DNA of 64,000 bases from the NCBI RefSeq assembly GCF_001636615.1, contig NZ_LGEK01000009.1, positions 1 through 64,000 on the forward strand, read 5' to 3'. Of this stretch, positions 7,368 through 61,645 are shown in pieces. The position numbers and the translations under genes are program-made. The notes beneath the pieces were generated by a model. That model saw nothing but the letters and a program-made list of their open reading frames with translations. It ran no database searches and had not been told where the DNA came from. This DNA is from Mucilaginibacter sp. L294. Its GTDB lineage: Bacteria; Bacteroidota; Bacteroidia; Sphingobacteriales; Sphingobacteriaceae. Position 1 is the first letter of the stretch. Each line of letters starts with the position of its first letter.

Positions 7368-7381
7368 GCTGATAGGATTAA

Positions 7382-9132: not shown

Positions 9133-9142
9133 CAAAAAAACT

Positions 9143-9150: not shown

Positions 9151-9161
9151 CCGCCATACTC

Positions 9162-10615: not shown

Positions 10616-10618
10616 CTG

Positions 10619-11122: not shown

Positions 11123-11139
11123 TTATTATTATTTAGATC

Positions 11140-40361: not shown

Positions 40362-41195
40362 TCATTCGTCTTTCTCGTCAAGTTTATTTTCAAGTGAGCC
40401 GATAAGGTTATGCAGGTAAGGCGTTCGAATCTTTTTCCTGATGCCCATACCGAGTAAAACGGTATAAACGTTACCAAGCCGGATATTGAAAAAGCACTCC
40501 ATATCTGCCACTAATTGCTTGATAGTAATATTGCCAAAATTGACAGAGCCTTTGGCATGGATAGCGTAAATGAGTTCTATTAGTGCCGCCTTTGAATCCG
40601 TCCAAGTCGTATTTCTTTTTTCTTTTTCAGTAGCATCCATTTGTCCCTGCTTTTCATTTGATATTACACGAAGCAAGTATTCCCTTAAATGCTCATAAGC
40701 CTGTATCTGGCCTAACATATAACTGTAAGGCGTTGAAAATTCCGGGTCTAAGTCCTGGGTATAAACCGGGTTTAAAGGCACACCCACAGCTTTTCTCACA
40801 AAATAATTTTCATCTGAATAAACCTGCCCTGTGCGGTAGTAGTTATACAATTGCTGGTTACGGTCAAAGAAGACTTCAATGGTCATAAGGTATTGTTCAA
40901 AATAAACCTTTTGTTTAGCCTCACTTCCAAGTGGCTTTCCGGCCTCTATGTAAAAGACCTCTGAGAAATAAATCAATTCTTTTAGGAACTGCGGCTTTAT
41001 TTCTTTGAAAAAGCGAATCTCCTCTTCGCTCGTCCCAAAGGAATAGGTTGAAATGAATTCCTTCAGTTTTTGTATATGTTGTTCTACAACATTAAATGAT
41101 TTTTCTGCCTGTTGTAATTTATCATCAATTTCAACGGCGGTCTTTTGAAGTTCCAGGTGCATAGCCGCAAGCAAACTCTCTGTGATTTTATCCAT
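40362..41195 (-). CDS. rteC: RteC-family regulator
   Basis: 277 residues, helical throughout (QQAEKSFNVVEQHIQKLKEF; LKELIYFSEVFYIEAGKPLG), with the RteC-type C-terminal segment NFGNITIKQLVADMECFFNI. RteC proteins activate excision genes of CTnDOT-type elements. Its presence beside tra genes is what a conjugative transposon carries. RteA/RteB kinase-regulator genes are not seen nearby. Confidence 0.9.
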   Translation of the reverse strand: MDKITESLLAAMHLELQKTAVEIDDKLQQAEKSFNVVEQHIQKLKEFISTYSFGTSEEEIRFFKEIKPQFLKELIYFSEVFYIEAGKPLGSEAKQKVYFEQYLMTIEVFFDRNQQLYNYYRTGQVYSDENYFVRKAVGVPLNPVYTQDLDPEFSTPYSYMLGQIQAYEHLREYLLRVISNEKQGQMDATEKEKRNTTWTDSKAALIELIYAIHAKGSVNFGNITIKQLVADMECFFNIRLGNVYTVLLGMGIRKKIRTPYLHNLIGSLENKLDEKDE

Positions 41196-42001: not shown

Positions 42002-42195
42002 TTCATTCATTTTAACAAACCGCAGTAGATTGCATTTATTCGTTTATATTTTTACCTGATTAATTTTTAGTGGAACAATTCCCGATTATAACGTTTGCTT
42101 CATCCCCTTCATGCCGTCAATTCCGCCGTTCGGGTAAAAGTTTATCTTCTTAGGTATTTTGGATGCTAATTTTCGGACACCCAATCACTAAATTA

Positions 42196-44982
42196 ATGAA
42201 GATTACCCTGCATCCAAAAATCATTTTCCGTGTACCAAGATTTTCCGTTAATGCCGTATTAGATAAAAGTTGGGAAGACCTGAAAGCCGCAATTGCTTTG
42301 TCTTCTAACGAATTCTATGATATCATCAAGAATGTACCGGCCTCCGAAATTGAAAAGCTACCGATCCGGGTCAAACAAACTATATGGAAATATTTTAACC
42401 GCGCGAAATACAGGGCAACTCCCTATGGTGGTTTTGCAGGTTTCGGAATATGCGATGTTACAAATGCATCGGATAATAAGTTGGTGTTTGCGAATCAGTT
42501 CTTACTCCACTCTTATTCTGACTGGACGTTAAAAGATGAACTTCATTTTTCTTTTGAAGACCTTTTATCTAAAAATGCATCCCTTTTTTCAAATAGTAGT
42601 TTCTACCAGGTTGATGATTGTGTTCGTTTCGTAGCATTAATTGACGGGCAGTTTCAATTGGCCGAAATAGAATACAGTCCGGATATAAAATCGATATTGC
42701 AGTTATGCCAAAACCCGCTTGAAGTATCTAAATTAAAAGACACACTCAACGACGCAATTGAAGCCGGCAATATCTTCGAACTTTTAGTTTACCTGCTGGA
42801 AAACCAGCTTCTGTTTTCCGATAACCATCCCAATATTATTGGTCAAGATTATTTCAAACGCTTGGCTATCCCCCATAATCCAAAAAAGAAACAATACATT
42901 ATTGCAGAACGGACTTTAATTCAGGGGCAACTCCAATCTCAATTATTCCGGTATGTTCCGCAATTGGTTGAAAAGCTTCAAAAAATAATGCAGCCTGCTG
43001 AGCAAAAAATGCTGGAAAGTTTTAAGACGCTTTTTCTTCAGAAATTCGAGCAGCGGGAAGTCCCCATCATGGTGGCTTTAGATCCCGAATTGGGCGTTGC
43101 TTATGATAACCTGGCTCAAATTACGGATGATGAATTTATAACAAAACTGGTGTTGGATGATAAATCAAAAAACATTTCTGAGAGCAGCAAAAGCGTTTTG
43201 TTAAAAACATTGATGGGTGGGCTTTCCAACGAATTGCCATTCTTCGATCTTGAAAAACTCGAATTTGAACAAGGGAAAGACACCCGTCAAATCGCGAACA
43301 CATTTAGTATGATTTGTACCGTAGTAGATGACAGGGTGTTTATAGAATCATTTGGTGGTAACAGCGCCAATACTTTACTAGGGAGATTTTCACTCGCAAA
43401 TGATGATATACTAAATTGTTGTCAGAGTTTAGCGGCAATTGAGAGAACGGCCAATCCTGGAGTGCTATTCTTTGATGTGGGCTATATGGCTGAGGGTTCT
43501 GTTGACAATATTAATCGCAGGCAATCTGTGAATGATTTACAGCTCAATATTTTGGCCTATGATACTTCTCCAAATCCGCTAACTATGGACGATATTTATC
43601 TTTCTGTCCGTCAAGGAGAATTAATACTCCGATCCAAAAAACTGAATAAGCGGCTTATACCGCGTATCGCATCTGCCTATAATCATCTGCGGTCAGATCT
43701 TCCGGTTTACCGGTTGCTGTGGGAATTGCAAAACCAGGGCCTTCAGACCGATCTTAATTTTTCAATTAAAAACATATTTCCAGGTTGGAATTATTATCCA
43801 GAAGTGCGTTTTAAAAATCTTTGCGTTTCGCCGCGTTGCTGGAAAGTGAAAATCCCAACTAATATAAAAGAGCCAAATGATTTTAAAAAATGGCTATCGA
43901 ACACCGGAGTTAGTCAACATTTCAAAACGGGAAAAAGTGACCAAACGCTGACTTTTAACCGGGAAAAGGAGGAGGATCTTTCGGTATTGATGGATATTTT
44001 GCGCAAGGAGCATTCGGTATTTTTGGAAGAAGTCCAGCTACCCAAACAATATCTGGCAACCGATGGTAACGAACTCCCTTATCATAGCCAGTTCGTAATG
44101 AGTTTTACACATTCAAAAAGTGCCTATCAACCGCTTACTTCTATTGAATTGCCTGTACTTGAAAATCAGGATTCAATTATTGCTATTGGTTCAGACTGGC
44201 TTTACTTCGAGATCTATTGCCATGCAACAAGGGCTGACCGTTTGCTTACTGAAAAGATTAGTAATTATCTGGAATCAAATAAGGGCTATATCGTAAAATG
44301 GTTTTTTATTCGCTATAATGAAGGCGGCAGCCACTTGCGGTTGCGACTACACCTTTACCAGAATGATACCTTACCAATACTTATGTCGGGCTTATCGGAG
44401 ACATTAGCCAAAGAGATTATTAGCGGCATAGTATCCGATGTTCGAATCCGCAATTATCGGAAAGAAACAGAACGGTATGGCATTTCTGGAATGGAAGCGG
44501 TGGAGAACCATTTTCACAAGGACAGTACTTATGTTTTGCGCATCCTGGCTATGCAATTGGATGTTTTGGCGAAATATAGACTATGCCTGGATTTATTAAT
44601 TCGGGTTCGCTCTTCAGCAGTTTTTGATGATCAATCATTCTTAAAACTTATTAATCATTTCAGCAACGCTTTTATAAAAGAACACCAGTTTGGGGTAACA
44701 GAATACAAAGCGCTTAATGAGCAATACCGGTCTTTTCAGCAATTGCCATTTTTAAATTCAATTACTTTACACACTGATTTAAATAGCCTGGCGGCGTCTA
44801 TGATACAGACTTTGCAACAGTGTCCTGAGCTTCACCGTGGCAACCTTTTAGCTGATCTCTTACATATGCATGTAAACCGCCTCTTTAGCAACAACCAGCG
44901 GTTACACGAATCTGTGATATATTACTTTGCAGTCAAAGGATTCCTACGAGATTCCAAACTGGCAAGCTTACAACGGGCCTAA
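42196..44982 (+). CDS. lanB: Lantibiotic dehydratase (LanB), full length
   Basis: 928 residues from the ATG at 42196 (MKITLHPKIIFRVPRFSVNA); an upstream ATG at 42163 adds 11 residues. The N-terminal glutamylation domain carries the family hallmark RATPYGGFAGFGIC near residue 73 and extends to about residue 640. The C-terminal elimination domain has LYFEIYCHATRADRLLTEKI, WFFIRYNEGGSHLRLRLHLY and a late HVNRLFSNNQ. LanB uses glutamyl-tRNA to dehydrate Ser/Thr in a leader-bearing precursor, giving dehydroalanine/dehydrobutyrine. No LanC cyclase or exporter is seen within the window. The Bacteroidota pinensin system instead splits this enzyme, so a fused form here is notable. Confidence 0.93.
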   Translation: MKITLHPKIIFRVPRFSVNAVLDKSWEDLKAAIALSSNEFYDIIKNVPASEIEKLPIRVKQTIWKYFNRAKYRATPYGGFAGFGICDVTNASDNKLVFANQFLLHSYSDWTLKDELHFSFEDLLSKNASLFSNSSFYQVDDCVRFVALIDGQFQLAEIEYSPDIKSILQLCQNPLEVSKLKDTLNDAIEAGNIFELLVYLLENQLLFSDNHPNIIGQDYFKRLAIPHNPKKKQYIIAERTLIQGQLQSQLFRYVPQLVEKLQKIMQPAEQKMLESFKTLFLQKFEQREVPIMVALDPELGVAYDNLAQITDDEFITKLVLDDKSKNISESSKSVLLKTLMGGLSNELPFFDLEKLEFEQGKDTRQIANTFSMICTVVDDRVFIESFGGNSANTLLGRFSLANDDILNCCQSLAAIERTANPGVLFFDVGYMAEGSVDNINRRQSVNDLQLNILAYDTSPNPLTMDDIYLSVRQGELILRSKKLNKRLIPRIASAYNHLRSDLPVYRLLWELQNQGLQTDLNFSIKNIFPGWNYYPEVRFKNLCVSPRCWKVKIPTNIKEPNDFKKWLSNTGVSQHFKTGKSDQTLTFNREKEEDLSVLMDILRKEHSVFLEEVQLPKQYLATDGNELPYHSQFVMSFTHSKSAYQPLTSIELPVLENQDSIIAIGSDWLYFEIYCHATRADRLLTEKISNYLESNKGYIVKWFFIRYNEGGSHLRLRLHLYQNDTLPILMSGLSETLAKEIISGIVSDVRIRNYRKETERYGISGMEAVENHFHKDSTYVLRILAMQLDVLAKYRLCLDLLIRVRSSAVFDDQSFLKLINHFSNAFIKEHQFGVTEYKALNEQYRSFQQLPFLNSITLHTDLNSLAASMIQTLQQCPELHRGNLLADLLHMHVNRLFSNNQRLHESVIYYFAVKGFLRDSKLASLQRA

Positions 44983-44998
44983 TGAAAAATATCAGGTT

Positions 44999-45778
44999 TC
45001 AGTTCATATTTATTGGATCAGATTTGTCTTTCAAGTTCCTTTTGGTTCTAATAGACACGCCCTCGAATTCTTCCCTGAAGATTTTCTTATAAGTTTTGCC
45101 AACATAAATATTTCTGTCGTCTTCCATTGTAAGCATATAATTGGCATTGCACTTTGACTTTATGTGGTCAATGTTTACTATACAAGAACGGCTTATACGT
45201 AAGTAGCTGGGATGGCTTGCCTCTTCTTCTACTTCTGAAATTTGCAGATAAGTAATAATTGGCTTTCCTTGGATAAGAACGATTTTAACATACTTTTCAA
45301 GGGCCTCAATATAAATTACCTGGTCTTTAAACACTTTAATATCGACTTTTGAATTTCGGGGAACAAAGAAATAAGGCTTACTTTCAATGGTATTGTTCGG
45401 CTGCCTGCTTAGCTTTTGCCTGACTTTAGCAATGCAATCGTTAAATGCACTAATGTCAACCGGTTTGACCAAAAAATAAAAAGCCTCCTTTGTGTAGGAT
45501 TCTGCGCCATAATCCATATAAGCAGTAACATAGACGACTTCAGTATAATCACTGATCTTTGGCCCGAGTTCAAACCCATCCATTTCCGGCATCTGAATAT
45601 CAATAAAGGCAATGTCCACCTCAATATCACCACTTGTGATTATTTTCTCGGCCTCATGTGGATCAGTTGTATAACTAACGAGTTCTAATTCATCGCCACA
45701 TATATCGATCAGCTTTTTAAGCTCGCGTATATAACGCTTATCGTCATCCACAATGAGGCACCTTATCTTCCTTTTCAT
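44999..45778 (-). CDS. LytTR response regulator
   Basis: 259 residues. Receiver domain with phosphoacceptor Asp in DIAFIDIQMPEMDGFELG and the switch Lys in YFLVKPVD; then a LytTR DNA-binding domain (VDIKVFKDQVIYIEALEKYV; YLRISRSCIVNIDHIKSKCN). It overlaps the kinase gene by 4 bp, so the two form a two-component pair. It would bind direct repeats, for which a candidate lies before the peptide gene at 46812. Confidence 0.95.
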   Translation of the reverse strand: MKRKIRCLIVDDDKRYIRELKKLIDICGDELELVSYTTDPHEAEKIITSGDIEVDIAFIDIQMPEMDGFELGPKISDYTEVVYVTAYMDYGAESYTKEAFYFLVKPVDISAFNDCIAKVRQKLSRQPNNTIESKPYFFVPRNSKVDIKVFKDQVIYIEALEKYVKIVLIQGKPIITYLQISEVEEEASHPSYLRISRSCIVNIDHIKSKCNANYMLTMEDDRNIYVGKTYKKIFREEFEGVSIRTKRNLKDKSDPINMN

Positions 45779-46767
45779 AAGTAAATAATGAGATTTAGAA
45801 TGTAATGGGTATCGTTGTTTTCAATATCGAGCTTAAACCGATTCCCATAAGTTTGTAATAATCTTTGTCTTGTATTTTCAATGCCAAAGTGCTCACCCCT
45901 AAAAGCTGCCTTATAGCGTTTTGCATTTACAAAACGGAAACGGATCAATTTATCGTCTGCCGTAAGGTCGATTAGCGCAGGGTCACCCGGGTTCTTAAAA
46001 TTGCCGTGCTTGAACATATTTTCGACCAGGTTAACCAGAAGTAAAGACGGTATCTCCACCTGACCTAAATGATCTTTCATATTGGTGACAAAATCGATGT
46101 AAAACCCTTCCTCACTAAGCATTTGGTGCAATTGGATATACCTTTTCATCTGTTCCATTTCTTCGTTTATCGATGCTTTATGTGTAACCTTAGATTGCCT
46201 TAAAGCATAACGCATGATATCTGACAATATGAGTAACGCTGCCGCTTGCTTTGGCTGGGCGTCTCTTATTTCATAGTATACAAAGTTTAAGGTATTGAAG
46301 AGTAGATGGGGATTTAACAACGCACGTTGATAAGCTTGTTCCAATTGTCTTGCTTGCATCTCTTTGCTTATAGCTAAATTTTGAAAAAAGAAAATGAATG
46401 CAAGACCCAGCAAATAGATTCCTCGCCAAAGGGTGAAAAAAATAATTTCATTTGAAACCCTTAGAGCCGGTAGTAGTAGGAAATAATTTCTAAGTGAACT
46501 TACCATGATTGATAATAACAGGAAGGCTAAAAGAGAAAGTGGAAGAAGTAAAAGCCACCAAATGCTCCAGTGATGCTTTTCAATTGTGGGCAGCAATACG
46601 TACCGACAAACATAAAAGAAGCTGATAAATAAAGAATATGCAATGCCTACGACGGGAATCAGATGCGGCATTGATAAAGGGAAAACAATTGGTATTTCAT
46701 AGCCCATAAACAGGCAGATAATAGCAACATGGATAAGTATTTTAAGAAGTTGGGATTTTGAAATCAT
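45775..46767 (-). CDS. LytS-type sensor histidine kinase
   Basis: 330 residues. Several membrane helices in the first 130 residues (LLKILIHVAIICLFMGYEIP; WLLLLPLSLLAFLLLSIMVS), then the His_kinase segment with NPHLLFNTLNFVYYEIRDA and a late ATPase (LVNLVENMFKHGN; FGIENTRQRLLQTYG). Partner of the LytTR regulator. It starts 154 bp from the divergent peptide gene, so the pair and the peptide share a promoter region. Confidence 0.93.
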   Translation of the reverse strand: MISKSQLLKILIHVAIICLFMGYEIPIVFPLSMPHLIPVVGIAYSLFISFFYVCRYVLLPTIEKHHWSIWWLLLLPLSLLAFLLLSIMVSSLRNYFLLLPALRVSNEIIFFTLWRGIYLLGLAFIFFFQNLAISKEMQARQLEQAYQRALLNPHLLFNTLNFVYYEIRDAQPKQAAALLILSDIMRYALRQSKVTHKASINEEMEQMKRYIQLHQMLSEEGFYIDFVTNMKDHLGQVEIPSLLLVNLVENMFKHGNFKNPGDPALIDLTADDKLIRFRFVNAKRYKAAFRGEHFGIENTRQRLLQTYGNRFKLDIENNDTHYILNLIIYL

Positions 46768-46811
46768 AAAATTATTTATTTAGAACACTTATTATAACTG
46801 ATATTAATGTG

Positions 46812-46881
46812 AGCGTTCATGCCGTTTTAGCTGCCCTTCATGGAATAGAATTTCTCATGTAAAATGACAGATGTAAATTTG
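46812..46881 (+). promoter_or_regulatory. Candidate promoter and LytTR site for the peptide gene
   Basis: TAAATTTG (46874-46881) matches the TAnnTTTG -7 box, 40 bp before the peptide ATG; the -33 element is only TTTC. Upstream at 46812-46829 two adjacent 9-mers (AGCGTTCAT and GCCGTTTTA) resemble LytTR half-sites, the first strongly, the second weakly. Confidence 0.4.
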
Positions 46882-46920
46882 AATTATTAAAAAATCACAG
46901 TATTATTTATCCTTAATAAC

Positions 46921-47073
46921 ATGAAAAGAACTACAAACAAGCAAGGTTTAAAAGCGTCAAAGACTGCGTTTTTCTTTAAGTCACAAAGAAGGGAAATGGT
47001 TGGCTTATGTACTGATCCAATCAACTCTACTGCACTCACTCCAACAACTGGCAGTTTAAATTGCACAGTTTAA
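46921..47073 (+). CDS. Candidate lanthipeptide precursor peptide
   Basis: A 50-residue open frame: leader-like part MKRTTNKQGLKASKTAFFFK then SQRREMVG, followed by a 22-residue core LCTDPINSTALTPTTGSLNC with TV at the end. The core has eight Ser/Thr and two Cys, and the leader has no Cys and is basic, the classic shape of a class I lanthipeptide precursor. It is divergent from the LytS/LytTR pair and 1.9 kb from LanB. A short hairpin follows the stop. No homologue is known to me. It is absent from standard length-limited ORF lists. Confidence 0.7.
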   Translation: MKRTTNKQGLKASKTAFFFKSQRREMVGLCTDPINSTALTPTTGSLNCTV

Positions 47074-47485: not shown

Positions 47486-47818
47486 ATGAAAAAAGGATTC
47501 TTAACCTTAGCCGCTATTGCCGCTATTTTTTCTGCAACAAATGCAGCAACCCCAAAAACTGATGCTAAAGACGCATCTGCCACAACAAATAAAGTTGAAG
47601 GTAAAGCCAAGCTTGCCAACACTTATTATGTTACCGGTGAAACTCTTGGAGGTCAATACATTCTGTCGGACATGCCCCCTGCTGATGGAATCTGTAAAGA
47701 CACTGGTGTGTTACCTTGTCAAATTTCATCAGACGAGGAATTGAGCTCACCAATTGACAAAGAAGATGTTACCAACAATCCAGATGTAACTGTCGAAAAA
47801 CACAGGGATTCATTTTAA
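47486..47818 (+). CDS. DUF6520-like small secreted protein
   Basis: 110 residues with a signal peptide (MKKGFLTLAAIAAIFSATNA). The mature part has a Cys pair spaced as CKDTGVLPC near residue 70, after YYVTGETLGGQYILSDMPPA. It has the look of DUF6520 proteins, small exported Bacteroidota proteins of unknown role that often stand beside TlpA and SusC/D genes, as here. It could be a target of the thiol protein next door. A terminator follows. Confidence 0.72.
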   Translation: MKKGFLTLAAIAAIFSATNAATPKTDAKDASATTNKVEGKAKLANTYYVTGETLGGQYILSDMPPADGICKDTGVLPCQISSDEELSSPIDKEDVTNNPDVTVEKHRDSF

Positions 47819-47824: not shown

Positions 47825-47862
47825 TATGGAAAAGGGAGGTAATCCCTTTTCCATATTTTATT
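47825..47862. terminator. Bidirectional terminator
   Basis: TATGGAAAAGGGA pairs perfectly with TCCCTTTTCCATA around a five-base loop, then TTTTATT. It separates convergent genes. Confidence 0.92.
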
Positions 47863-49345
47863 ATAATTTCTCTATTGCTTTGACCAATGAATCGTAATCT
47901 CTGAGTGAATAGCTATTAAAGTCCTCTATTAGTCCTTTTTTATTTAAGAGAATAATTGTGGGCGCACCGTCGATAGCGTAATTTAAAAACATAGGGTGTC
48001 GCAAGCCTTCTCCATTTGTATAAATATTAACCGCACCTTTTCCTGTATAAACATTCGCTGAGATACTACGCTTCCAAATTTCTTTATTTCTGTCAGCAGA
48101 AATTGAGAGGATAGTAAAATCCTTTTTTGCTGCGTATTTTTCTTCAATTTTTGATAATACATTTTTATAGTAAATCCCGCAATATCCACACCCAGTAAAC
48201 CAAATGTCAATAAGCACAGCTTTATCTTTGAAATCTGATATTTTCACTTCCTTTCCCTCAGTATCAGTGAATTTATAATCGGCCAGGTAAGTATTGGGAA
48301 GACTATTAAGTTTATTTTCAATAGCCGCTTTTCTGCCGGGATCAGAAATTACGTTCACAGCCTTATTATAAAACGAACGCGCTTCCTGAGATCGTGCAAC
48401 TTTGGAAAAAAATGAAACTAACATCTGTTCACGAACTTCCCCTGAACAATTTGCCATAATTGTCCCAAACACTGATCGGTTGTTATACGTTTCCTTAATA
48501 GTTACAGCAAAGCTGCACAATTTGGAAATATAATTTAGGTAGCCTTTTGAATTCGCAAGAGACTTGTCTGGTATCGCATAATTTTTTACTGGGAAAAGAA
48601 CGGCCATGAATTTTAGAGCATATTCTCCTTCACCATTCCTTCCTTTGATATTTTTGTAATAATAGTCAGTGATACTATTGAGGTTGTCGCTTAAAACTAT
48701 AGCAATTAAATCTGCCTTTATAATGAAAAAGACATCCGGACTTATTGACGATTTATAGCTGTCCAGAATTTCAAATTTCTTTATTATCAAAGTACCCAGG
48801 TTCTCCGGAAGTCCACCAAAAATATTTCCGTCATATCTTTTCTCCGGAATGTCAATTTTTATTTTAGTTTTTAATAATGCCTCCTTCGCTGTGTATTTTT
48901 CAGATCCTTTTCCGGAATATATTGCAGTTGTATAAATGCCGATATTAGTGTCTTTATGATCTATTTTTATGTCAATACTATCACCTGATTCCCACAATTG
49001 AGGATAGAGCAAATCCACGTCTCTATTAGTTGCTGAGCCTCGTTTTCTTTTTAACGTAAAATATCCTATCCGGCCCTTTACAGGAAGGTCAAATTCAAAG
49101 ACACCTTTTGAATTGCAAGTGGCAAAAGCATCTTTCCCTTCTGTAACAAATAAAAGCGCATTATTAACTGATAATTCTAAAGTATCCCCAGGTGCAGCTT
49201 GGAGGTAATTAATAGATAATTTAATTCTAGAATCGGATTGTATTTTAGAAAGCAGTGCTGCACTGGCAATACGATGTGAAAATAAAGTTGATGCCAAAAC
49301 AATAATAAAGAGATAACATCTTTTAAGTCCTAATTTCGTTTTCAT
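47861..49345 (-). CDS. TlpA-like thioredoxin-fold protein
   Basis: 494 residues with a signal peptide (MKTKLGLKRCYLFIIVLAST). A large N-terminal beta domain is followed at about residue 355 by a TlpA/AhpC-TSA fold: VLIDIWFTGCGYCGIYYKNV, with CGYC as the redox pair, then APTIILLNKKGLIEDFNS (cis-Pro). It would reduce or isomerise disulfides or peptides in the periplasm. Such proteins accompany SusCD sets in Bacteroidota. It is the last gene of the fecR-susC-susD run. Confidence 0.88.
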   Translation of the reverse strand: MKTKLGLKRCYLFIIVLASTLFSHRIASAALLSKIQSDSRIKLSINYLQAAPGDTLELSVNNALLFVTEGKDAFATCNSKGVFEFDLPVKGRIGYFTLKRKRGSATNRDVDLLYPQLWESGDSIDIKIDHKDTNIGIYTTAIYSGKGSEKYTAKEALLKTKIKIDIPEKRYDGNIFGGLPENLGTLIIKKFEILDSYKSSISPDVFFIIKADLIAIVLSDNLNSITDYYYKNIKGRNGEGEYALKFMAVLFPVKNYAIPDKSLANSKGYLNYISKLCSFAVTIKETYNNRSVFGTIMANCSGEVREQMLVSFFSKVARSQEARSFYNKAVNVISDPGRKAAIENKLNSLPNTYLADYKFTDTEGKEVKISDFKDKAVLIDIWFTGCGYCGIYYKNVLSKIEEKYAAKKDFTILSISADRNKEIWKRSISANVYTGKGAVNIYTNGEGLRHPMFLNYAIDGAPTIILLNKKGLIEDFNSYSLRDYDSLVKAIEKL

Positions 49346-49364: not shown

Positions 49365-50762
49365 TTACCTTGGATTTTGTTCTAAACCACTTATCTGGAT
49401 TTCTTGATCAGGTATAGGAAGTACATACCTTGGATCATTGGGGGGCAATTCAATAACCACATTATTAACTGTCCGTTTTATTGTGGTTTGAAAACGTGTG
49501 TCACCGTTTAATCTCCGCAAATCTTCCCAACGGAGATTTCCGACCTCAGGTAATTCCTTCCTGCGTTCCATTAGTATCAAACGTAATGCCCCTTCTGCAT
49601 CCGCTGTATTCAAATCGGTAAAAGTCCCGGTCTTGAAGCGTTTAACAAGAAGCGTATTAAGGTCTTTTAATGCTCCGTCCTTATCCCCTTCACGTGCCTT
49701 GGATTCTGCCCTTATCAAATACGTTTCATTAATCGCCAAACCGCAAAATGGAGTATAACTTCCCGTGTAGCTTGCGACAAGATTTTTGTATGTCCCGGTT
49801 CCACCATATAAGGTACTTTTCCTGAGATCATTTCCATCATAAGTTTGGTATAGGTCAGGATTAACATAGCCTGGGCTACTTAGCAAAGCATTTAATGAAC
49901 TATACATGTCACCTTTGGCAAAAAATAAAATTTCCGGATTATTTTTACCATCTGGTGGAAACTTATATGCAAATGCCGAAGAAACAAGACTTGAATTATT
50001 ATAATCCAAAAGGGTGTTATGGTTTGCAATTACCAAATCGGTGTATTTAACCGTATTTACATAATCTCCCATAATGAAATAAATCTTTGCTATAAGCGCT
50101 TGTGCAGCAGATTTGGAAGGCCGCTGTAAATAAGTCTGACTTTCATTCAACAAGCGCTCTGCCGTTAATCCATCTGCAATGATCAGGTTGTACAATTCCT
50201 TTAATGACGATCTCTGTACAAGGATGTTTACATCTGATGTTTTCCTTATCGGTAACCCTAGATCAGAAGTTGCAGTTGCTGGGTTGTAAGGTTTGCAAAA
50301 TAATTGCGCTAAATTATAATATGCCATAGCCCGATGAAAATACGCTTGACCTTTTAGATTATCATACCCTAATTCTGAAACGTTGATTTTTCCCAAACCT
50401 TCAATTGCAATGTTTGCAAATTCTATCTTGGAATAAAAAAAATTCCAGTCATAAGAAAGCCCCCCCTGCCAGACTTGCTTGTTCCAAGTATAGAGATTCC
50501 TTTCAGATTCTGTGAGGGTTCCCAAATTAGTGTCATTGATATAAATATTATCTGCCCCAACAAGTCCTGCACTCGAAAACTGACCATTCATAATAGTGGT
50601 ATTATCAAGAATGGCTTGAAAATCCTTAATAGTCTCAGGTACAACACTGGCTTTATTGGATTTAATATCCAGCCAATCATTTTGCTTATCACAGCTACAG
50701 GTCATTGCCACTATGATTAAGGTTAGTATTACCTGGTAATAATTATGTTTGAATATTTTCAT
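49365..50762 (-). CDS. RagB/SusD-family nutrient-binding lipoprotein
   Basis: 465 residues with a lipobox (VAMTCSC, Cys near residue 24) and the SusD fold: YDNLKGQAYFHRAMAYYNLA (TPR), GLPIRKTSDVNILVQRSSLK, RAESKAREGDKDGALKDLNT and LRWEDLRRLNGDTRFQ near the end. It would bind a ligand at the cell surface for the SusC channel. Ligand unknown. It starts 5 bp after the susC stop. Confidence 0.95.
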   Translation of the reverse strand: MKIFKHNYYQVILTLIIVAMTCSCDKQNDWLDIKSNKASVVPETIKDFQAILDNTTIMNGQFSSAGLVGADNIYINDTNLGTLTESERNLYTWNKQVWQGGLSYDWNFFYSKIEFANIAIEGLGKINVSELGYDNLKGQAYFHRAMAYYNLAQLFCKPYNPATATSDLGLPIRKTSDVNILVQRSSLKELYNLIIADGLTAERLLNESQTYLQRPSKSAAQALIAKIYFIMGDYVNTVKYTDLVIANHNTLLDYNNSSLVSSAFAYKFPPDGKNNPEILFFAKGDMYSSLNALLSSPGYVNPDLYQTYDGNDLRKSTLYGGTGTYKNLVASYTGSYTPFCGLAINETYLIRAESKAREGDKDGALKDLNTLLVKRFKTGTFTDLNTADAEGALRLILMERRKELPEVGNLRWEDLRRLNGDTRFQTTIKRTVNNVVIELPPNDPRYVLPIPDQEIQISGLEQNPR

Positions 50763-50767: not shown

Positions 50768-53700
50768 TTATTTAAAATTTGCATTTAATCCTATAGAAAA
50801 AGAACGAGGGTCAATGTATTGGGTCGTCGCTTCAGGGTCTATGCCCAACTTATTTTTCCTCCAAATGATGCCTACATTATTGGCATAAGCATAAAGCTGC
50901 ACTTTTTCAAAAAACTTACTTTTCAATAAAGTCGCTGGAAGGTCGTAACTCAGTCTAATGTCCTGAAGACGTATATTATCGCCTTTGATAATTAGTGCAT
51001 CGGAGTACTGATAAAAATTATTACGGTTCGTGTTATTTGGATAGATAAGAGAAGGCACATTTGTTGTCCGTTCATCCCCCGGCTTTTGCCACCGAAGGGC
51101 GTAATCTGAATTTGCACCGGTGGTGAGGACACTTGTATAATTGAGATTTACGGAAGAACGACGGGTTACGAATCCAAAACTATATCGCATGTTCACAGAT
51201 AACCCGAAACCTTTATAATAGAAATCATTCCTGAATGCCCCGAATACCGTGGGGCGGCTTGAACCTGCATATACCAAGCTATCCGGATTGAAATTATTAA
51301 CAATACCTGTGTAATCCTGACTTACTTTACCATTCAGATAACCTTGTGGCGCACCGGTCTGTGGGTCAAGGCCTGCCCATTTATAAGCATATATTGCAAA
51401 TAACGGCTTGCCGACTACGCCTCCGAAATTACTGATGCTGGTTGATGTGCGGGGTGCGTCGTAACGAATTACTCTATCTTTAATAGCACTAAACAGCAAT
51501 GTGGTACTCCATTTCAATCCCCTGTTAAAATTTTGGCTGGTGAGGGTAATATCCCAACCAGTGGTATGCGTGTTGGCAGTATTGGCTGTGTACGTTAGAA
51601 AACCTGTTTGAGGCGCAAGCACTGTCGGTTGAATCAGGTCTTTGCCGTCTTTTTGATAAAATTCAATACTACCTTTCAAAATACTTTTGGCGAATTCAAA
51701 GTCAATTCCGAAGTTTATGTTCCTTATTTTCTCCCACTGTAATTCGGGATTGGGCGCAGTGACATTCGCGATATCCTGTGCGCCTGTGGTACCATCAGTA
51801 AAATAGCGGCCAGTCAGGAACGCAGAACCGTTTTCATAAACATTACCATTAAAACCATAGGTTGCCCTTAACTGTAAATAAGGAATGAGTGCAAAATGGT
51901 AAAACTCTTCCCTGCTTGCATTCCAGCCTAAACCCGCTGACCATAACGGGGTAATCTTGTCGTTCACTTTGGCACCAAACAGGTTCGCGCCGTCTTTTCT
52001 TCCACTTAGGTTTAAAGTATATCTATTATCATAGCTATACGCGATATTGGTGTAATAAGAAACGTAGCGGTTAAGGACACCTGAAACGGAACCTCCAATG
52101 TCAGGTAATCGGGAAGAGCCGGAAGGATTTGTAGGATAAGTTGTATTATAATTAAGCGCTGTGTTAGATGTACCAAACTGATCATCGTAACCAAAAAGCG
52201 TCTGGCCTATTCCTGTCGTTTGTAATTCCCTGATCTCCGCCCCTGCGATCGCCGTAATATTATGCTTATTAAACGCCTGGTCGTAATTAAACTGTCCCCG
52301 CAAATTGTTAGAATGCCAATCGTAATTTGATTGAGTAAGAATGCCACCTAATGGGAAATTATAGGTAAAAGTACTGTTGGATGCATTGTAAACGGAATAT
52401 TTATTAATTAGATTCCGAACGTAATAGGTGGATTGACTCTGGTTATTTTGTGTGGTTATTTGTTGATGTTCATTCTGATAATTGATCTCTGCTGATAATT
52501 GCGGAATGATTTTGTATTTAATTCCAAACCGGGTAAGAAGGTCATTTATTTTGGTGGTATTATCTGCAAATGCAATTTCATCCAATGGCCTGTTATGCCA
52601 ATCCAGGAAACCTTTACTTTCTGCATCGTTTAAATAAGAATCCCGGATCGGGGTAGAAACGGCAAGTGGGCTTCCGTTAGCATCAGCAAGTTGCGCATAA
52701 GGAAAGAGATATCCATATTTCCCGCCGACAGAATAAGCATCGTAAGCAAATGAGTTGTTACGCAATGTAGTATTCTGGCTGTAATTAATACCTGCTGTTA
52801 ACTCAATATTTTTGGTAAGGCTGTAAGTATTCAATGAATTCAGTGAAATACGGTTATAGCCATTGCGGATCAAATTTGACCTGTCCTTATCAATGCCACC
52901 ACTTAGGGAATAGGTAAGTTTATCTGTTCCGCCACGCAACCCTAAAGAATATTGCTGGTTTATGGCTTTTTGATAGACGTACTTTGTATAATCATTACGA
53001 ACGTCAATATTCCTTAAAATATCCAATTGCGAATTAGCATCATCAGCTGTAATGGTTCCGGCTTTCAATTTTGCCATTATTTCAACGGCGGGACTAATGA
53101 TTGGCCTTGTCGTAGTGTTTTTTAAATCGGAATCAAAAAAACCGTTGTTAAACAAGTATTGCTCTGCTTCGATATAATCCTTTGAGTTCAAAAATCCAAG
53201 GTCATAGGATAAGTCCGGTTTATTGGCGATGGTAATATTACTATTGAAATTGATTTTCATAGCCTGATTTTTACGGCCCTTTTTTGTTGTAATAATGATT
53301 ACACCATTTCCAGACCTTGCACCCCATATCGAAGCTGCTGCTGCATCTTTCAATATGGTAATGGATTCGACATCATTAGGATTGATGTTAGCGATCTCTC
53401 CTTCGTATGGGAAGTTATCCAGCACGATCAATGGTTCTGTTGAGGACATAAAGGTGCTTACACCACGAACCGTAATACCGGTATTTTTAGAAGTTGGAGA
53501 GGTAGCTATAGCAGGAGTTACTCTCCGAAAGGCAACACCTGTAGTAATACCATTTAAGCGGTCAAGGACATTGGTAGAAACGCTGCGATTGAATAAGGAG
53601 TTGTTGATTTGGAGAAAGGAACCAGTTGAACGTTCTTTGGGTAAATTCTGATAACCATTATTGACGACACTTACTTCCTGTAGCGCATTTATTAAGGCAG

Positions 53701-54337
53701 ATAGCACTACATCTACAATTCCACCTTTATTAGCCGCAACCGGATGCTCTTGATTTGTGAAACCGAGAATGCTATATACCAGATCACCATCCTCAGGTAT
53801 TTTGATAAAGCGATAAAATCCAGAGGCATCCGTCAGTGCTATCCGGTTTGTCCCTTTAAGCCTAATGGTAACACCCTGTAATGGTTTACCAAGCGTGTCA
53901 GTAACCCTTCCGGTAATTGTTGTATCAATCAATTGCTTATCGGGTGGCACATAGGAATGTGTCTGTGGTTTCGCCTTTAGTAAGATTGTCTTTCCTGTCA
54001 CTTCATAAATTACCGGTTGGCCTTTGAAACACTGTTCCAGTGCCTTTTGTACAGTGGCGTTCTTTAGGGTAAGTGTTACATTATGGATGTTATCTAATAG
54101 ATGATCTTCGGCTATAAGACTGTAGCCGCTTTGCTTTTTGATCTCATCCAGTACCTTTTCTATAGGCGCATCCTTTACATTAATACTGATCTGCTGGGCA
54201 TATACATTGGCCGTTACTTTCAGGCAGGATAGTAGGGTGAGTAAGATGATCAGCCGCATGATGAGAAACGTTTTAGGGTTCAATATGCCGCGCGTTTTTT
54301 CGACCATAGGTGGCCCCACGCATGGTTTTAAATTCAT
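50768..54337 (-). CDS. SusC-family TonB-dependent receptor with STN domain
   Basis: 1189 residues from the ATG at 54337 (MNLKPCVGPPMVEKTRGILN). After the signal peptide comes an STN domain (ISINVKDAPIEKVLDEIKKQ), a carboxypeptidase-like domain (TITGRVTDTLGKPLQGVTIR), the plug (IKDAAAASIWGARSGNGVII) and a 22-strand-type barrel ending in GLNANFK. The STN domain marks it as a signal-transducing receptor that talks to FecR. Substrate unknown; SusD lies next. Confidence 0.95.
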   Translation of the reverse strand: MNLKPCVGPPMVEKTRGILNPKTFLIMRLIILLTLLSCLKVTANVYAQQISINVKDAPIEKVLDEIKKQSGYSLIAEDHLLDNIHNVTLTLKNATVQKALEQCFKGQPVIYEVTGKTILLKAKPQTHSYVPPDKQLIDTTITGRVTDTLGKPLQGVTIRLKGTNRIALTDASGFYRFIKIPEDGDLVYSILGFTNQEHPVAANKGGIVDVVLSALINALQEVSVVNNGYQNLPKERSTGSFLQINNSLFNRSVSTNVLDRLNGITTGVAFRRVTPAIATSPTSKNTGITVRGVSTFMSSTEPLIVLDNFPYEGEIANINPNDVESITILKDAAAASIWGARSGNGVIIITTKKGRKNQAMKINFNSNITIANKPDLSYDLGFLNSKDYIEAEQYLFNNGFFDSDLKNTTTRPIISPAVEIMAKLKAGTITADDANSQLDILRNIDVRNDYTKYVYQKAINQQYSLGLRGGTDKLTYSLSGGIDKDRSNLIRNGYNRISLNSLNTYSLTKNIELTAGINYSQNTTLRNNSFAYDAYSVGGKYGYLFPYAQLADANGSPLAVSTPIRDSYLNDAESKGFLDWHNRPLDEIAFADNTTKINDLLTRFGIKYKIIPQLSAEINYQNEHQQITTQNNQSQSTYYVRNLINKYSVYNASNSTFTYNFPLGGILTQSNYDWHSNNLRGQFNYDQAFNKHNITAIAGAEIRELQTTGIGQTLFGYDDQFGTSNTALNYNTTYPTNPSGSSRLPDIGGSVSGVLNRYVSYYTNIAYSYDNRYTLNLSGRKDGANLFGAKVNDKITPLWSAGLGWNASREEFYHFALIPYLQLRATYGFNGNVYENGSAFLTGRYFTDGTTGAQDIANVTAPNPELQWEKIRNINFGIDFEFAKSILKGSIEFYQKDGKDLIQPTVLAPQTGFLTYTANTANTHTTGWDITLTSQNFNRGLKWSTTLLFSAIKDRVIRYDAPRTSTSISNFGGVVGKPLFAIYAYKWAGLDPQTGAPQGYLNGKVSQDYTGIVNNFNPDSLVYAGSSRPTVFGAFRNDFYYKGFGLSVNMRYSFGFVTRRSSVNLNYTSVLTTGANSDYALRWQKPGDERTTNVPSLIYPNNTNRNNFYQYSDALIIKGDNIRLQDIRLSYDLPATLLKSKFFEKVQLYAYANNVGIIWRKNKLGIDPEATTQYIDPRSFSIGLNANFK

Positions 54338-54401
54338 ACTTTTGTTTGTTGGGTTTAAATAAATCAATCAAGGTTTGTTGGGAGTCATTCCCCCCGATGT
54401 T

Positions 54402-56570: not shown

Positions 56571-57329
56571 TTATCCGTTTCTTAGCATGTCAGCATATTC
56601 ATTGGGTAGTGGGCTATCCTCAACCGCCTTAGCTGCCTTTTCTATATCATAGTCAAAGCGAATGAACTCCACTTGTATGCTGTCTTTATCTGTTTTAGAA
56701 CTGTTTTCATTGATGTGTAATAACACATAACCACCGCGTGGGTCTTTATCTTTTGGCTTGCCAACCGAACCGATATTGATCGCATGGAAGAACTGGCCTT
56801 TATCAGAAAGTACCCTGTGATAAGGTTGATGGGTATGGCCAAAGCACATGACATCCGCATCGGCCTGTTCCATAATGCGCAACATGCTTTTTTCATCCCT
56901 ATCTTCAAACAGGTACTCGTTTACTTTACGGGGACTGCCGTGTACAAAAAGCACATTGAGTTTATCGTTGTTTAACTGAAATTCTAAACGGATATGGGCT
57001 GGCAGGGTACGCAAATAAGCCCGCTGTTCCTCTTTTACCACCTCGTTGGTATAAGCAATAGATATTTTGCCTAATGCCTTTTCCTCGTCTGTTTTATAGG
57101 CACAGCCGCAGTCATCACTATGGCGACCTATACCGAAGTCATAATTACCGGTAATGCATGGGATGTTGCGTTTGCGGATCTCATCAATGACTTCATTCGG
57201 CCAAATATTGTAGCCAACCAAGTCACCAAGGCAATATATAGCGTCCGGCTTTTGGGTTTCCACATCGGTAAAGAATGCTTCCAATGCGGGCAGATTCGCA
57301 TGTATATCTGAAAAAAGAGCGATCTTCAT
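56571..57329 (-). CDS. Metallophosphoesterase B of the arsenic operon
   Basis: 252 residues with the same motifs as A, but GNYDFG replaces GNHD (His to Tyr in the third motif), and a 30-residue insertion follows with a CGC pair (HSDDCGCAYKTDEEKALGKI). GHTHQPYH is intact. Its ATG overlaps the ACR3 stop (TAATG), so translation is coupled. The CGC could bind As(III), or be structural. Paralogue of A; a tandem duplication. Confidence 0.9.
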   Translation of the reverse strand: MKIALFSDIHANLPALEAFFTDVETQKPDAIYCLGDLVGYNIWPNEVIDEIRKRNIPCITGNYDFGIGRHSDDCGCAYKTDEEKALGKISIAYTNEVVKEEQRAYLRTLPAHIRLEFQLNNDKLNVLFVHGSPRKVNEYLFEDRDEKSMLRIMEQADADVMCFGHTHQPYHRVLSDKGQFFHAINIGSVGKPKDKDPRGGYVLLHINENSSKTDKDSIQVEFIRFDYDIEKAAKAVEDSPLPNEYADMLRNG

Positions 57330-58414
57330 TATTGAACAGTTTTTAGTGTTTTTGCGGTATAATATTTCTTACGGAAGTAAAAGGCCAGATTGACCAATGC
57401 GATCAATGCAGGTACTTCTACCAATGGGCCGATCACACCGGCAAAAGCTTCACCGGAGTTGATACCAAACACACCGATGGCAACAGCAATCGCCAGTTCA
57501 AAGTTGTTGCCGGTGGCGGTAAAAGCGATGGATGTTGAACGGGAATAGTCTGCACCAAATGCTTTGCCGATAAAGAAGCTCAACACAAACATAATGGTAA
57601 AGTAGATCACCAATGGGATAGCGATACGCAGTACATCAAATGGTATTTGCACGATCAGGTTACCCTTTAAGCTGAACATCACTACGATGGTAAACAATAA
57701 AGCGATCAGCGTTATGGGTGATATGAATGGCACATATTTCGTTTGGAACCATTGCTCGCCTTTAAGCTTTATTAAAGTGTAGCGACTGATCACACCGGCA
57801 GCAAACGGAACGCCCAGATAGATACCTACACTTTTGGCGATCTCACCGATGGTGATATTTACAGCCAATCCTTTTAAGCCGAATAAGGGCGGCAGAACGG
57901 TAATAAACAGATATGCATATACACTGTATAATAACACCTGAAATATGCTGTTCAAAGCAATTAGCCCGGCTGCATATTCCCGGTTACCCTCGGCCAGCTC
58001 ATTCCAAACGACCACCATCGCGATACAGCGGGCAAGCCCGATCAGTATTAAGCCAACCATATAGGCAGGATGGTCACGTAATAGTGTGATGGCCAATACA
58101 AACATTAATACTGGCCCGATGATCCAATTAAGGATGAGCGAAGCGCTCAATACTTTTGTATCCTTGAATACCTCGCCCATGTTCTCGTATTTCACTTTAG
58201 CCAGTGGTGGATACATCATTAAGATCAAACCAATCGCTAAAGGGATATTGGTCGTTCCGCTGGAAAAAGAGTTGATAAAGCCCGATGATGAGGGGATAAA
58301 GTAGCCAATTCCTACACCAAAGGCCATCGCCAGGAATATCCACAGGGTTAGATAGCGATCGAGGAAGCTTAGTTTTTTACGTTCGGCCACCGGGGCACAG
58401 TTGTTTGCTGACAT
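57329..58414 (-). CDS. acr3: ACR3-family arsenite efflux permease
   Basis: 361 residues with ten hydrophobic segments. Family motif [19 protein letters not shown] holds the essential Cys of the fourth helix; [20 protein letters not shown] and [18 protein letters not shown] are typical ends. It exports As(OH)3 using the proton gradient. Some labs use the symbol arsB for this position, but the sequence is ACR3, not the true ArsB family. Confidence 0.96.
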
Positions 58415-58457
58415 AATTAGTTGCGTATATCGTGTTTTAATGTGAATTGAGTATAAA

Positions 58458-59084
58458 CTACTTCCAGTTTTCTTTGAATTTAATGGCGGAAAAAAGCATT
58501 TCCGCTGTGATTAGTTTGGCTTGCGCATCATACTGTTCGTCAGTTGCACCAGCCGGTAATGGTTGATATTTCAATTTAACTGCAAACTTGTCGGGGTTGG
58601 TGAGTAAGGATGCGGCACTTTCCTGTACCAATACATGGATGGCCTGTGGGTTTGATGGTGATGTTTCAAAAGTTACTGAACCGCCCTGGTCATTATATTT
58701 AGCTTCTTCTCCGCTTGTTTTGAAACCAAGTTTGGCGAGTACCACTGCGACTTTAGGAGAAGTTGCTGTCCCGACTACAAATATTTTCACGTCATTGATG
58801 CCGTATCCAGCCAGCGCAGTTTTTAGCACCGCCTTAGCAACTTGCGCGCTAAAGCCGTCGTTACCTTCAAACTCTACGATCACCGGAAGTTTTTTGCCTT
58901 TGGTCACAATACCTAACTGCTGTATACCCCCAAGTTCATCCTGTCGGGCATCGGTGATCGGAGTACTCTTTTTAAGTAGTTTGAAAGTTTGTGCCAATTC
59001 AGGATAAACAGGATCAGCCGCAGGAGCAAAAGCCGAACTTACGACCAGTAAGCCAGCCAAGAAAAGAAGGGATAAATGTTTCAT
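58458..59084 (-). CDS. Secreted LMW-phosphatase-like protein lacking the catalytic loop
   Basis: 208 residues with a signal peptide ([20 protein letters not shown]). The layout ([25 protein letters not shown]; a beta strand [38 protein letters not shown]) tracks secreted Bacteroidota low-molecular-weight tyrosine-phosphatase/arsenate-reductase homologues, which have CxxNxRRS after that strand. Here the segment is [13 protein letters not shown], with no Cys or Arg, so the protein should be inactive. The comparison is from memory. Between acr3 and arsC. Confidence 0.72.
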
Positions 59085-59147
59085 GATTTTAAGTTTTATA
59101 GTTCAATTGGTTTATTGCTATTTAACGATAGATAAGCTCAAAAAAAG

Positions 59148-59564
59148 TTAGCTGACGTGTTGGCTTACAAAGCCAGCTGCATAGACTTTGATCATATCCC
59201 GCACCCTGCGAAACTCACCCAGCACTTCATCTGGCGTACCTGTTGCTTTCGCCGGATCAGGGAAATTCTCGTGGAAACGTTCCACCTTACCCGCAAAGAA
59301 CGGGCAGGCTTCGTTCGCATTATCGCAAACTGTTATTACCTGATCAAAAGAGATAGCGCCATATTCATCCACATGATTTGAAGTATGACCGGATATATCG
59401 ATATGGTCTTCAGCCATTACTTGTATGGCTTTCGGGTTTACGCCGTGTGTTTCGATTCCTGCACTGTAAACGTTGGCTTTGTCGCCCGCAAAGAAACGTA
59501 AGTAACCTTCTGCCAATTGGCTGCGGCAACTATTGCCGGTACACAGGACTAATATATTTTTCAT
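59148..59564 (-). CDS. arsC: Arsenate reductase (LMW-PTP type)
   Basis: 138 residues. LVLCTGNSCRSQLAEGYLRF has the CX5R phosphate loop at residues 8-14, and a late Cys pair is in VCDNANEACPF. This is the thioredoxin-coupled ArsC that reduces arsenate to arsenite for export by ACR3. Complete, normal length. Confidence 0.96.
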   Translation of the reverse strand: MKNILVLCTGNSCRSQLAEGYLRFFAGDKANVYSAGIETHGVNPKAIQVMAEDHIDISGHTSNHVDEYGAISFDQVITVCDNANEACPFFAGKVERFHENFPDPAKATGTPDEVLGEFRRVRDMIKVYAAGFVSQHVS

Positions 59565-59568
59565 TTTT

Positions 59569-59994
59569 TTAGATTGACTTTTTCATAACGATAGCCGACA
59601 TCGGGCAAACATGGCTGAACTCAGATGATTGCTGAACCTCAACGGGTACTTCTTCCCTCGTTATAGGATTATAATTCTTGTGTTTGAAGTAGGCAGGTGC
59701 GGTTTCTGTTAACAAATATAGTTCGGACAGTCCTTTTTGCTTACTTATACTGTCCAGCCGTGAAAGCAGTTTACCTGCTATTCCTGCACCTCTGTGTTCA
59801 GAATGAACAGCCAAAGACCGCAGCAGGCCATAGTTTCCATAAACCTCAACACCACCTACACCAATGACTCTACCATTTTGAATGGCCACAATAAAGTTAT
59901 CCAGGGTTTCCGGCAGGTCGGTTACCGGCAGCTTTTCAGTTGCCAGCAATTCGACGATTTGAGTTCTGTAAGGCTGAGCCTGGTCTATGATCAT
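59569..59994 (-). CDS. GNAT acetyltransferase of the arsenic operon (ArsN2-like)
   Basis: 141 residues from the ATG at 59994 (MIIDQAQPYRTQIVELLATE); the longer reading overlaps the upstream gene and is rejected. Motif A is SLAVHSEHRGAGIAGKLLSR. Position right after arsC matches arsN2-type GNATs found in arsenic operons. It may acetylate an arsenic-containing amino acid such as AST; this is inferred from place only. Confidence 0.88.
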   Translation of the reverse strand: MIIDQAQPYRTQIVELLATEKLPVTDLPETLDNFIVAIQNGRVIGVGGVEVYGNYGLLRSLAVHSEHRGAGIAGKLLSRLDSISKQKGLSELYLLTETAPAYFKHKNYNPITREEVPVEVQQSSEFSHVCPMSAIVMKKSI

Positions 59995-60005
59995 GGTTGT
60001 ATTCT

Positions 60006-60572
60006 TTAGCAGCAGCCACCGCCCGGTGTGCAAGCTTCCGCAGGCGCAGCCAGGTTCACTAATTGTACTTTTGGTTTTTCAGCTACAGCGGGTGTACAGC
60101 ATTCTTCACCTTTATCATTTGTACCGCAACTACCGCCACGTGTGATCGCCTTACATTGCACCGCATCTGGGCGCAGGTCAATGGTTAAGGCATTGCCGTC
60201 CACAATCATTTCATTGGGAAACATCTGGCGGGTATCGAATTCAGAGTTGCCAAATTCGATCTTTACTGTCCCATTAGGGTTAAGCGGCAACATTTTTTCT
60301 ACAATATCTACAATAGATAAAGCCTTGCCTACTTTCATCGAGCGCTCCTGCTGTTCGCCTTCCGGTACCCAAAGTTGCACGATGATCTCTGTCCAGGCAT
60401 TCATTACGCCACCACAATCTACCGAGGTGATCGGTGCCTGTTTGATCTCCGTAATATGGTATGCTGCATCTACCAGTTTGCCTTCTGCATATTGGAATTG
60501 CAGGTCAAGGTCGGGATGCTGTAATAAGGTGTCTTTAAAGGTTTTCCAATTGATCGCTTCTACTTTATTCAT
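60006..60572 (-). CDS. DUF6428-family protein with Cys-rich tail
   Basis: 188 residues. Body beta-alpha mixed (INWKTFKDTLLQHPDLDLQF; GKALSIVDIVEKMLPLNPNG). The C-terminal 50 residues hold GGSCGTNDKGEECC and EACTPGGGCC, eight or so Cys, a plausible As(III) trap or chaperone. Proteins like this (DUF6428) stand in Bacteroidota arsenic operons. An ArsR operator-like palindrome precedes it. Confidence 0.85.
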   Translation of the reverse strand: MNKVEAINWKTFKDTLLQHPDLDLQFQYAEGKLVDAAYHITEIKQAPITSVDCGGVMNAWTEIIVQLWVPEGEQQERSMKVGKALSIVDIVEKMLPLNPNGTVKIEFGNSEFDTRQMFPNEMIVDGNALTIDLRPDAVQCKAITRGGSCGTNDKGEECCTPAVAEKPKVQLVNLAAPAEACTPGGGCC

Positions 60573-60592
60573 AGCTCTGTGATTATTATTTT

Positions 60593-60609
60593 AATTGCAA
60601 TATTGCGAT
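60593..60609. promoter_or_regulatory. Second ArsR operator-like palindrome
   Basis: AATTGCAATATTGCGAT with a perfect core GCAATATTGC (60597-60606) lies between arsR and the DUF6428 gene. It shares GCAATATT with the site in front of arsR. Confidence 0.65.
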
Positions 60610-60628
60610 GGGTTTACTCAAATTTTTT

Positions 60629-60958
60629 TTAGCAGCAGTCAGCTTTATCCTGGTACATGCTAAAGAAGCTATTCAGGTTTTGCTGCAATAACTTCCAGGC
60701 TTTCGGCTCGATGCAGTAGCATACGCTCACCCCATCAATAGTGCCTTGTATCAATCCCGCATTTTTCAGCTCTTTCAAATGTTGTGATATCGTAGGTTGC
60801 GCCAAACCCAATTCGGTAACAAGGTCGCCGCAAATACAAGCATTGGCTTTAATAATTTCCTGCAAGATCGCAATGCGTGCAGGATGCGCCATAGCTTTCA
60901 GCATAACAGCTAACCTGTTTTGCTCTTCGGTGAATATTTCTGTTTTAGTTAAGCCCAT
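60629..60958 (-). CDS. arsR: ArsR-family repressor
   Basis: 109 residues: winged helix of the ArsR/SmtB type (AMAHPARIAILQEIIKANAC; LGLAQPTISQHLKELKNAGL). CICGDL near residue 45 is the family metal-binding site (ELCVCDL type), and the protein ends in CC. It should release DNA when As(III) binds. First gene of the operon. Confidence 0.96.
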   Translation of the reverse strand: MGLTKTEIFTEEQNRLAVMLKAMAHPARIAILQEIIKANACICGDLVTELGLAQPTISQHLKELKNAGLIQGTIDGVSVCYCIEPKAWKLLQQNLNSFFSMYQDKADCC

Positions 60959-60962
60959 AATG

Positions 60963-61005
60963 ATATTGCAATATTACGATTAATGTCTTTATACTTCCAA
61001 ATTTA
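60963..61005 (-). promoter_or_regulatory. arsR promoter and operator
   Basis: On the minus strand TAAATTTG (61005-60998) fits the TAnnTTTG -7 box, and ATATTGCAATAT, a perfect 12-bp palindrome, lies at 60963-60974 between it and the arsR start. No -33 TTTG at the ideal spacing. Confidence 0.65.
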
Positions 61006-61011
61006 TTTTGG

Positions 61012-61644: not shown

Positions 61645-61645
61645 T

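Follow-up and report, generated by a model that had tools for sequence, protein, structure and literature searches.

The 64,000-nucleotide stretch analysed here (Mucilaginibacter sp. L294, contig NZ_LGEK01000009.1, positions 1 to 64,000; hereafter the window) carries a gene for the lantibiotic dehydratase LanB, a pair of genes for a LytS-type histidine kinase and a LytTR-type response regulator, and a 50-codon frame at 46921-47073(+), and we found that this frame is a real gene under purifying selection. Taken together, the locus is in our judgement quite probably best explained as a LanB-only system for a ribosomally synthesized and post-translationally modified peptide (RiPP) that has its own two-component switch. 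The initial annotation had regarded it as one odd, distinct locus; instead, the LanB–peptide–LytS–LytTR arrangement is a common LanB architecture in Mucilaginibacter and is also seen in Pedobacter. The proposed linkage of a full-length LanB with a LytS/LytTR pair was borne out at the domain level: LanB (928 aa, 42196-44982, + strand) combines PF04738 (Lant_dehydr_N, 3.9e-53) with PF14028 (Lant_dehydr_C, 4.2e-51), an alternative ATG start at 42163 being less likely, as the alignment of most relatives begins from 42196. The lanB gene is convergent with the regulator gene (44999-45778, − strand; PF00072 and PF04397), and the peptide gene is divergent from the kinase gene (45775-46767, − strand; PF06580), whose product has four hydrophobic segments within its first 126 residues according to hydropathy analysis.

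The window peptide consists of a leader of about 25 residues (MKRTTNKQGLKASKTAFFFKSQRRE) and a putative core at about residues 29-50 (LCTDPINSTALTPTTGSLNCTV), and these last 22 residues indeed contain the eight Ser/Thr and two Cys residues that had been described. By inspection, neither an FxLD nor an LxLxKx5L motif is present in the leader (MKRTTNKQGLKASKTAFFFK). The family leader consensus is MKxKxFKIxxxTLFVF/Y, with a hydrophobic strand at the leader end that reads K-x-T-L-F-V-Y/F-K in the family and K-T-A-F-F-F-K in the window. Its closest relative is the peptide of locus L145 from another Mucilaginibacter genome, with which it shares the core CxDPxNSxALTPTTGxLNCTV; the ratio of nonsynonymous to synonymous substitution rates (dN/dS) in the core of this pair is 0.17, with a high dS. 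In close pairs, whole-peptide dN/dS values were mostly 0.06-0.30 where dS was measurable, and codon changes were mainly synonymous. Together with the conservation of the frame beside LanB, kinase and regulator in other genomes, this upholds the earlier claim of an overlooked precursor gene. A single-sequence search with the window peptide against 60 relatives gave weak matches only, because the peptides are too divergent for pairwise searches and a profile is needed; the family profile matches the window peptide at 1e-10 to 3e-13, the peptide itself being a row of that profile. None of the 23 seed peptides gave a useful match to NCBIfam or Pfam, and the family as a whole was unmatched by any of their models.

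The linkage of the peptide with the other three genes was analysed in a seed set of 26 LanB relatives from Mucilaginibacter, Pedobacter, Taibaiella and Chitinophaga, of which 24 have a histidine kinase and 25 a response regulator beside them. In nearly every case, the gaps of these seed loci hold an unlisted 39-57 aa frame with the common leader and a Thr-rich core, such as MKQKHFKIPDTTLFVYKPQNSLKNVTETEGTDPTTSMITMTKTGVFNAGRSN. The peptide profile was then run on whole genomes irrespective of LanB, and 41 of 150 Mucilaginibacter genomes gave matches. Of the 34 matches that were fetched (a few of them from a locus or species already represented in the seed set), 32 have LanB as a neighbour, nearly all together with a LytS kinase and a LytTR regulator; in the remaining two, the profile match is weak. 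With a wider profile, matches appeared in 154 of the 400 Sphingobacteriaceae genomes sampled and rarely elsewhere in the phylum. The hosts of this widespread family are soil and water bacteria. In 20 further fetched loci, mostly from Pedobacter, the kinase and the regulator were always present, and LanB was recognized within the stretch in 18. LytTR matches number only about 17 in the 5.25 Mb of the window genome, and a random gene would thus lie within 3 kb of one only about 2% of the time. Four of the 20 further loci (Pedobacter L212-L215, for example L215 at 4270-5202) carry five to six near-identical precursors arrayed in tandem between the kinase and the regulator, and their core STDPTANTILMTQSS[ML]SNIFNK is kept across species while the leaders vary slightly. 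At about 6650-6960 on the minus strand of locus L060 (G008:C70), the peptide frame is broken near an A run, with start and core in different frames, which points to a disrupted gene or to an error in the assembly. A plasmid search returned distant LanBs only.

Shared upstream elements connect the peptide gene with lanB. We scored 10-bp direct repeats upstream of both genes at spacings from 11 to 40, and 21 bp was the only enriched spacing, with z values of 5.6 upstream of the peptide genes and 6.0 upstream of lanB (the latter computed over 23 loci), a level that 199 other upstream regions of the same loci reach in about 1 of 1000 resamples. In 38 loci outside the discovery set, 21 bp was again the only peak (7.05 versus 5.9-6.4; shuffles 6.07 +/- 0.15). 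The candidate LytTR sites of the window are TTCATGCCGT-N11-TTCGGGTAAA at 42108-42138(+) upstream of lanB and TTCATGCCGT-N11-TTCATGGAAT at 46816-46846(+) upstream of the peptide gene, and the common pattern TTCATGCCGT-N11-TTC has only two occurrences in the 5.25-Mb genome, at these positions (42108 and 46816), against about 0.16 expected from base counts. The second site is followed after 27 bp by a candidate −7 promoter box, TAAATTTG (46874-46881, + strand), which fits the Bacteroidota consensus TAnnTTTG. The exact 21-bp spacing is as expected for a LytTR dimer, and AgrA and other LytTR proteins bind paired direct repeats adjoining the promoters that they activate (PMC4227749). We infer that the regulator of this locus binds the 21-bp-spaced repeats, and LytTR control of both the peptide gene and lanB is very likely. 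That the system is signal-controlled, as was initially proposed, is probable as well, and the peptide is indeed associated with LanB and with the LytS/LytTR pair.

In the mechanism that we propose, the short gene would encode a leader with its terminal hydrophobic strand and a Thr/Ser-rich core. LanB would bind the leader, glutamylate Ser and Thr residues of the core from Glu-tRNA and eliminate the glutamate, leaving dehydrobutyrine (Dhb) and dehydroalanine (Dha) residues. LanC would not take part in any ring closure, and a linear dehydrated peptide would be the usual outcome, because LanC is missing and most relatives have no Cys to close rings; the product of the window could at most contain a non-enzymatic thioether or a disulfide. 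The LytTR regulator would bind the spaced repeats upstream of lanB and the peptide gene and activate both, which would result in a closed, autoregulated unit, and the mature peptide would either be the cue sensed by the adjacent kinase or be under the control of such a cue. By analogy with Gram-positive LytTR peptide systems, this is the most likely role of the peptide. The narrower proposal that the peptide is the adjacent kinase's own signal is a serious possibility that falls somewhat short of an even chance. Only tentatively do we extend it to a form of Gram-negative quorum sensing in the Sphingobacteriaceae, in which a lanthionine-free, Dhb-rich LanB peptide would be the LytS ligand, LytTR would drive the peptide gene and lanB, and spread would be partly conjugative.

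The peptide could also be a LanB-modified effector, for example an antimicrobial, with a kinase that senses envelope stress or nutrients and a regulator that switches production on, and we regard this as a real contender that does not quite reach even odds. Bacteriocin genes are commonly under two-component control, the 21-bp repeats point to co-regulation and not to what the kinase senses, the cores differ between species, and the tandem arrays would suit high production. However, the system lacks any conserved exporter or immunity gene, and the near-identical cores of the Pedobacter arrays (core dN/dS ≤0.05) fit a receptor-bound ligand at least as well.

The term lanthipeptide-like of the initial annotation turned out to be only partly right: LanB with both domains and the precursor are real, whereas the name lanthipeptide is inappropriate for the family, in which most members are without Cys and without LanC. 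Cys is absent beyond the leader from 79 of 91 distinct peptides (the window peptide contains two), and 36 of the 59 system-bearing genomes have no LanC domain anywhere. The product is likely a LanB-dehydrated peptide without a lanthionine ring, and we are rather confident that it is free of LanC-made rings. An ordinary class I lanthipeptide, in which an unlinked LanC closes rings on the two Cys residues of the window peptide, would be compatible with its many Thr/Ser residues and with the few Mucilaginibacter LanBs that do have LanC nearby. Among 150 listed Mucilaginibacter LanBs, a stand-alone LanC lies within 12 kb of 14 and a family peptide within 7 kb of 49, and a single one (in genome G177) has both. 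Such an unlinked LanC is nonetheless unlikely, given the general lack of LanC domains and of Cys residues to cyclize. In line with the initial annotation, no LanC, protease or exporter gene was found beside the locus, and the wider lanC search that it had suggested gave no stand-alone gene in the genome; as the only LANC_like domain lies within a class II LanM encoded on a different contig, we rejected a stand-alone LanC that acts in trans. At 6234-9035(+) of L066 (G000:C253), a class II LanM-type gene (DUF4135 plus LANC_like) is followed by apparent response regulator and histidine kinase genes. We also sampled 20 of the LanBs with neither LanC nor family peptide, and 19 of them have a LytS/LytTR pair close by (the pair lies farther off in the twentieth, L251), and in 14 a short frame rich in Thr and Ser lies close to the kinase gene, nearly always without Cys, which indicates that the profile misses divergent members. 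The second LanB of the window genome (1088 aa; 7977-11243(−) in L065, G000:C231:82977-101744) has no LanC, kinase or regulator gene within the fetched stretch and is adjoined by SusD, SusC and TlpA-like genes.

The LanB of the window looks intact as judged from its sequence. It is a single protein, not split, and its residues Y66, R69, R73 and H890/H892, which align with Y80, R83, R87 and the H961 region of NisB, are invariant over 14 relatives, as are the HLRLR and ExxRYG motifs. We are highly confident that the peptide is the substrate of this enzyme. PEARLs (peptide aminoacyl-tRNA ligases), which extend a peptide rather than dehydrate it, have no elimination domain; the presence of this domain in our LanB, together with the invariant motifs and H961-aligned residues, makes a PEARL function very improbable, even if PEARLs carry the lantibiotic dehydratase annotation and work without LanC (PMC11212132, PMC11962472). 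The assumption of the initial annotation that a full-length LanB is unusual in Bacteroidota, with split dehydratases as the rule, did not hold, as class I lanthipeptides with a LanB are common there (PMC7268733) and some of them have been produced heterologously (PMC9993889). That the 50-codon frame is a chance open reading frame, as its shortness, the lack of a database family and a 59-aa frame antisense to it might suggest, can be dismissed with near certainty, since relatives in the same relative position beside LanB, kinase and regulator are conserved with low dN/dS and share the regulatory repeats.

The window peptide belongs to a branch with a C-terminal Cys motif, found in eight loci (the window, L067-L070, L145, L149 and L221). 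In the LanB phylogeny, the LanBs of these loci all fall within one 13-member clade (support 0.97), and enzyme and core type thus travel together. SusD and SusC genes adjoin all eight Cys-type loci, most of them with a thioredoxin gene, and of 12 Cys-free loci checked, some of them with shorter flanks, 2 also had SusCD; we therefore rejected the idea that SusCD is a constant component throughout the family. In the window, the peptide gene is followed on its 3' side by genes for a small secreted protein with two Cys (47486-47818, +; no Pfam family), a TlpA-like thioredoxin-fold protein (47861-49345, −; PF13905/PF08534), a SusD-like lipoprotein (49365-50762, −; PF14322, PF07980), a SusC-like TonB-dependent outer-membrane transporter (50768-54367, −) that is homologous to SusC of the other Cys-type loci, and FecR. 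The small secreted protein is conserved beside some island-type relatives, with phmmer matches in L070 and L069 that adjoin a TlpA-like gene. A possible role of the SusCD–thioredoxin module is to handle the window-type peptide at the outer membrane. On the opposite flank lie tra genes and a gene for RteC, a regulator of CTnDOT-like conjugative transposons (40362-41195, −; PF09357, 1.1e-64), in agreement with the conjugative location that had been proposed; RteC also adjoins lanB in L067, L068 and L070, hence in four of the eight Cys-type loci, and the LanB clade of the window includes conjugative-element copies. It is possible that the Cys-type branch became mobile and acquired an outer-membrane module for peptide handling. 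Farther along, at 57329-63991, translations read as arsenic-type genes (ACR3-like, low-molecular-weight phosphatase-like and ArsR-like), then as tniQ/tniB/transposase-like genes.

Several observations weigh against a LanB-only signalling system. The dehydration is a prediction from sequence, the kinase could sense something other than the peptide, and the two Cys residues of the window peptide make a thioether possible. No exporter or protease, as a secreted signal would need, is conserved within about 8 kb of the family loci, C39-ABC genes being present in a few loci only. Among the seed loci, L073 has no kinase, no regulator and no recognizable peptide, and L068 is without a kinase and has only a short regulator frame. 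The same species recurs across some of the genome sets, so that the counts are not all independent, and these genomes are rich in SusCD genes, whose adjacency could partly be due to chance. Clusters of 65-73 aa peptides occur in L056 (11128-16599), L060 (2283-3385) and L064 (651-1687), with a double-glycine (GG) site in the L056 example. The L056 cluster, near the LanB unit, adjoins genes for a radical SAM protein and for an ABC transporter with a C39 peptidase, and the clusters are probably a separate RiPP system.

As in the autoinduced lantibiotics of the nisin type, LanB and a two-component pair share one regulatory unit in our locus, but LytTR and a LytS kinase take the place of NisRK, and LanC, LanT, LanP and immunity genes are missing. 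With the Gram-positive LytTR pheromone systems (agr, com/blp), it shares a peptide gene beside a membrane kinase and a LytTR regulator as well as paired direct repeats upstream of controlled promoters, which here are candidate sites; it differs from them in the Gram-negative host, the LytS/PF06580 kinase, LanB as the modifying enzyme and the lack of any dedicated exporter that we could see. It resembles TglB-type PEARLs in having a LanB-like enzyme without LanC and differs from them in keeping the elimination domain and conserved residues, and LanB-type dehydration in Bacteroidota, predicted here, is a feature of the pinensins. Pinensin clusters include LanC, and the product contains Cys. A further difference is their split LanB (PMC7268733). 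Bacteroidota class I lanthipeptides have LxLxKx5L leaders, often with a GG site, and are encoded with LanB, LanC and a C39 protease (PMC7268733). Our family is similar in its full-length LanB and in a short precursor that combines a hydrophobic motif in the leader with a core rich in Thr and Ser, whereas it has no LanC, no conserved GG site and no conserved C39 exporter, its core is usually without Cys, its leader motif is TLFVY/F, and it is regularly paired with LytS/LytTR. The main published survey took LanC as its starting point and kept only cores that contain Cys (PMC7268733); it would not pick up our family, which accounts for the lack of an earlier description. We found no description of the peptide family in the literature, subscription journals being mostly beyond our coverage. 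LanB chemistry is known, and what appears to be new is a LanC-less, Cys-poor precursor family tied to LytS/LytTR.

In summary, most Mucilaginibacter LanB genes examined sit in LanC-less LanB–peptide–LytS–LytTR units and not in the usual lanthipeptide clusters, which changes how lantibiotic dehydratase annotations in Bacteroidota are to be read and exposes a precursor family that LanC-seeded, Cys-requiring mining discards. To our knowledge, LanB-modified peptide pheromones are not established in Gram-negative bacteria, and these units offer a compact candidate in which peptide signalling by such organisms can be tested.

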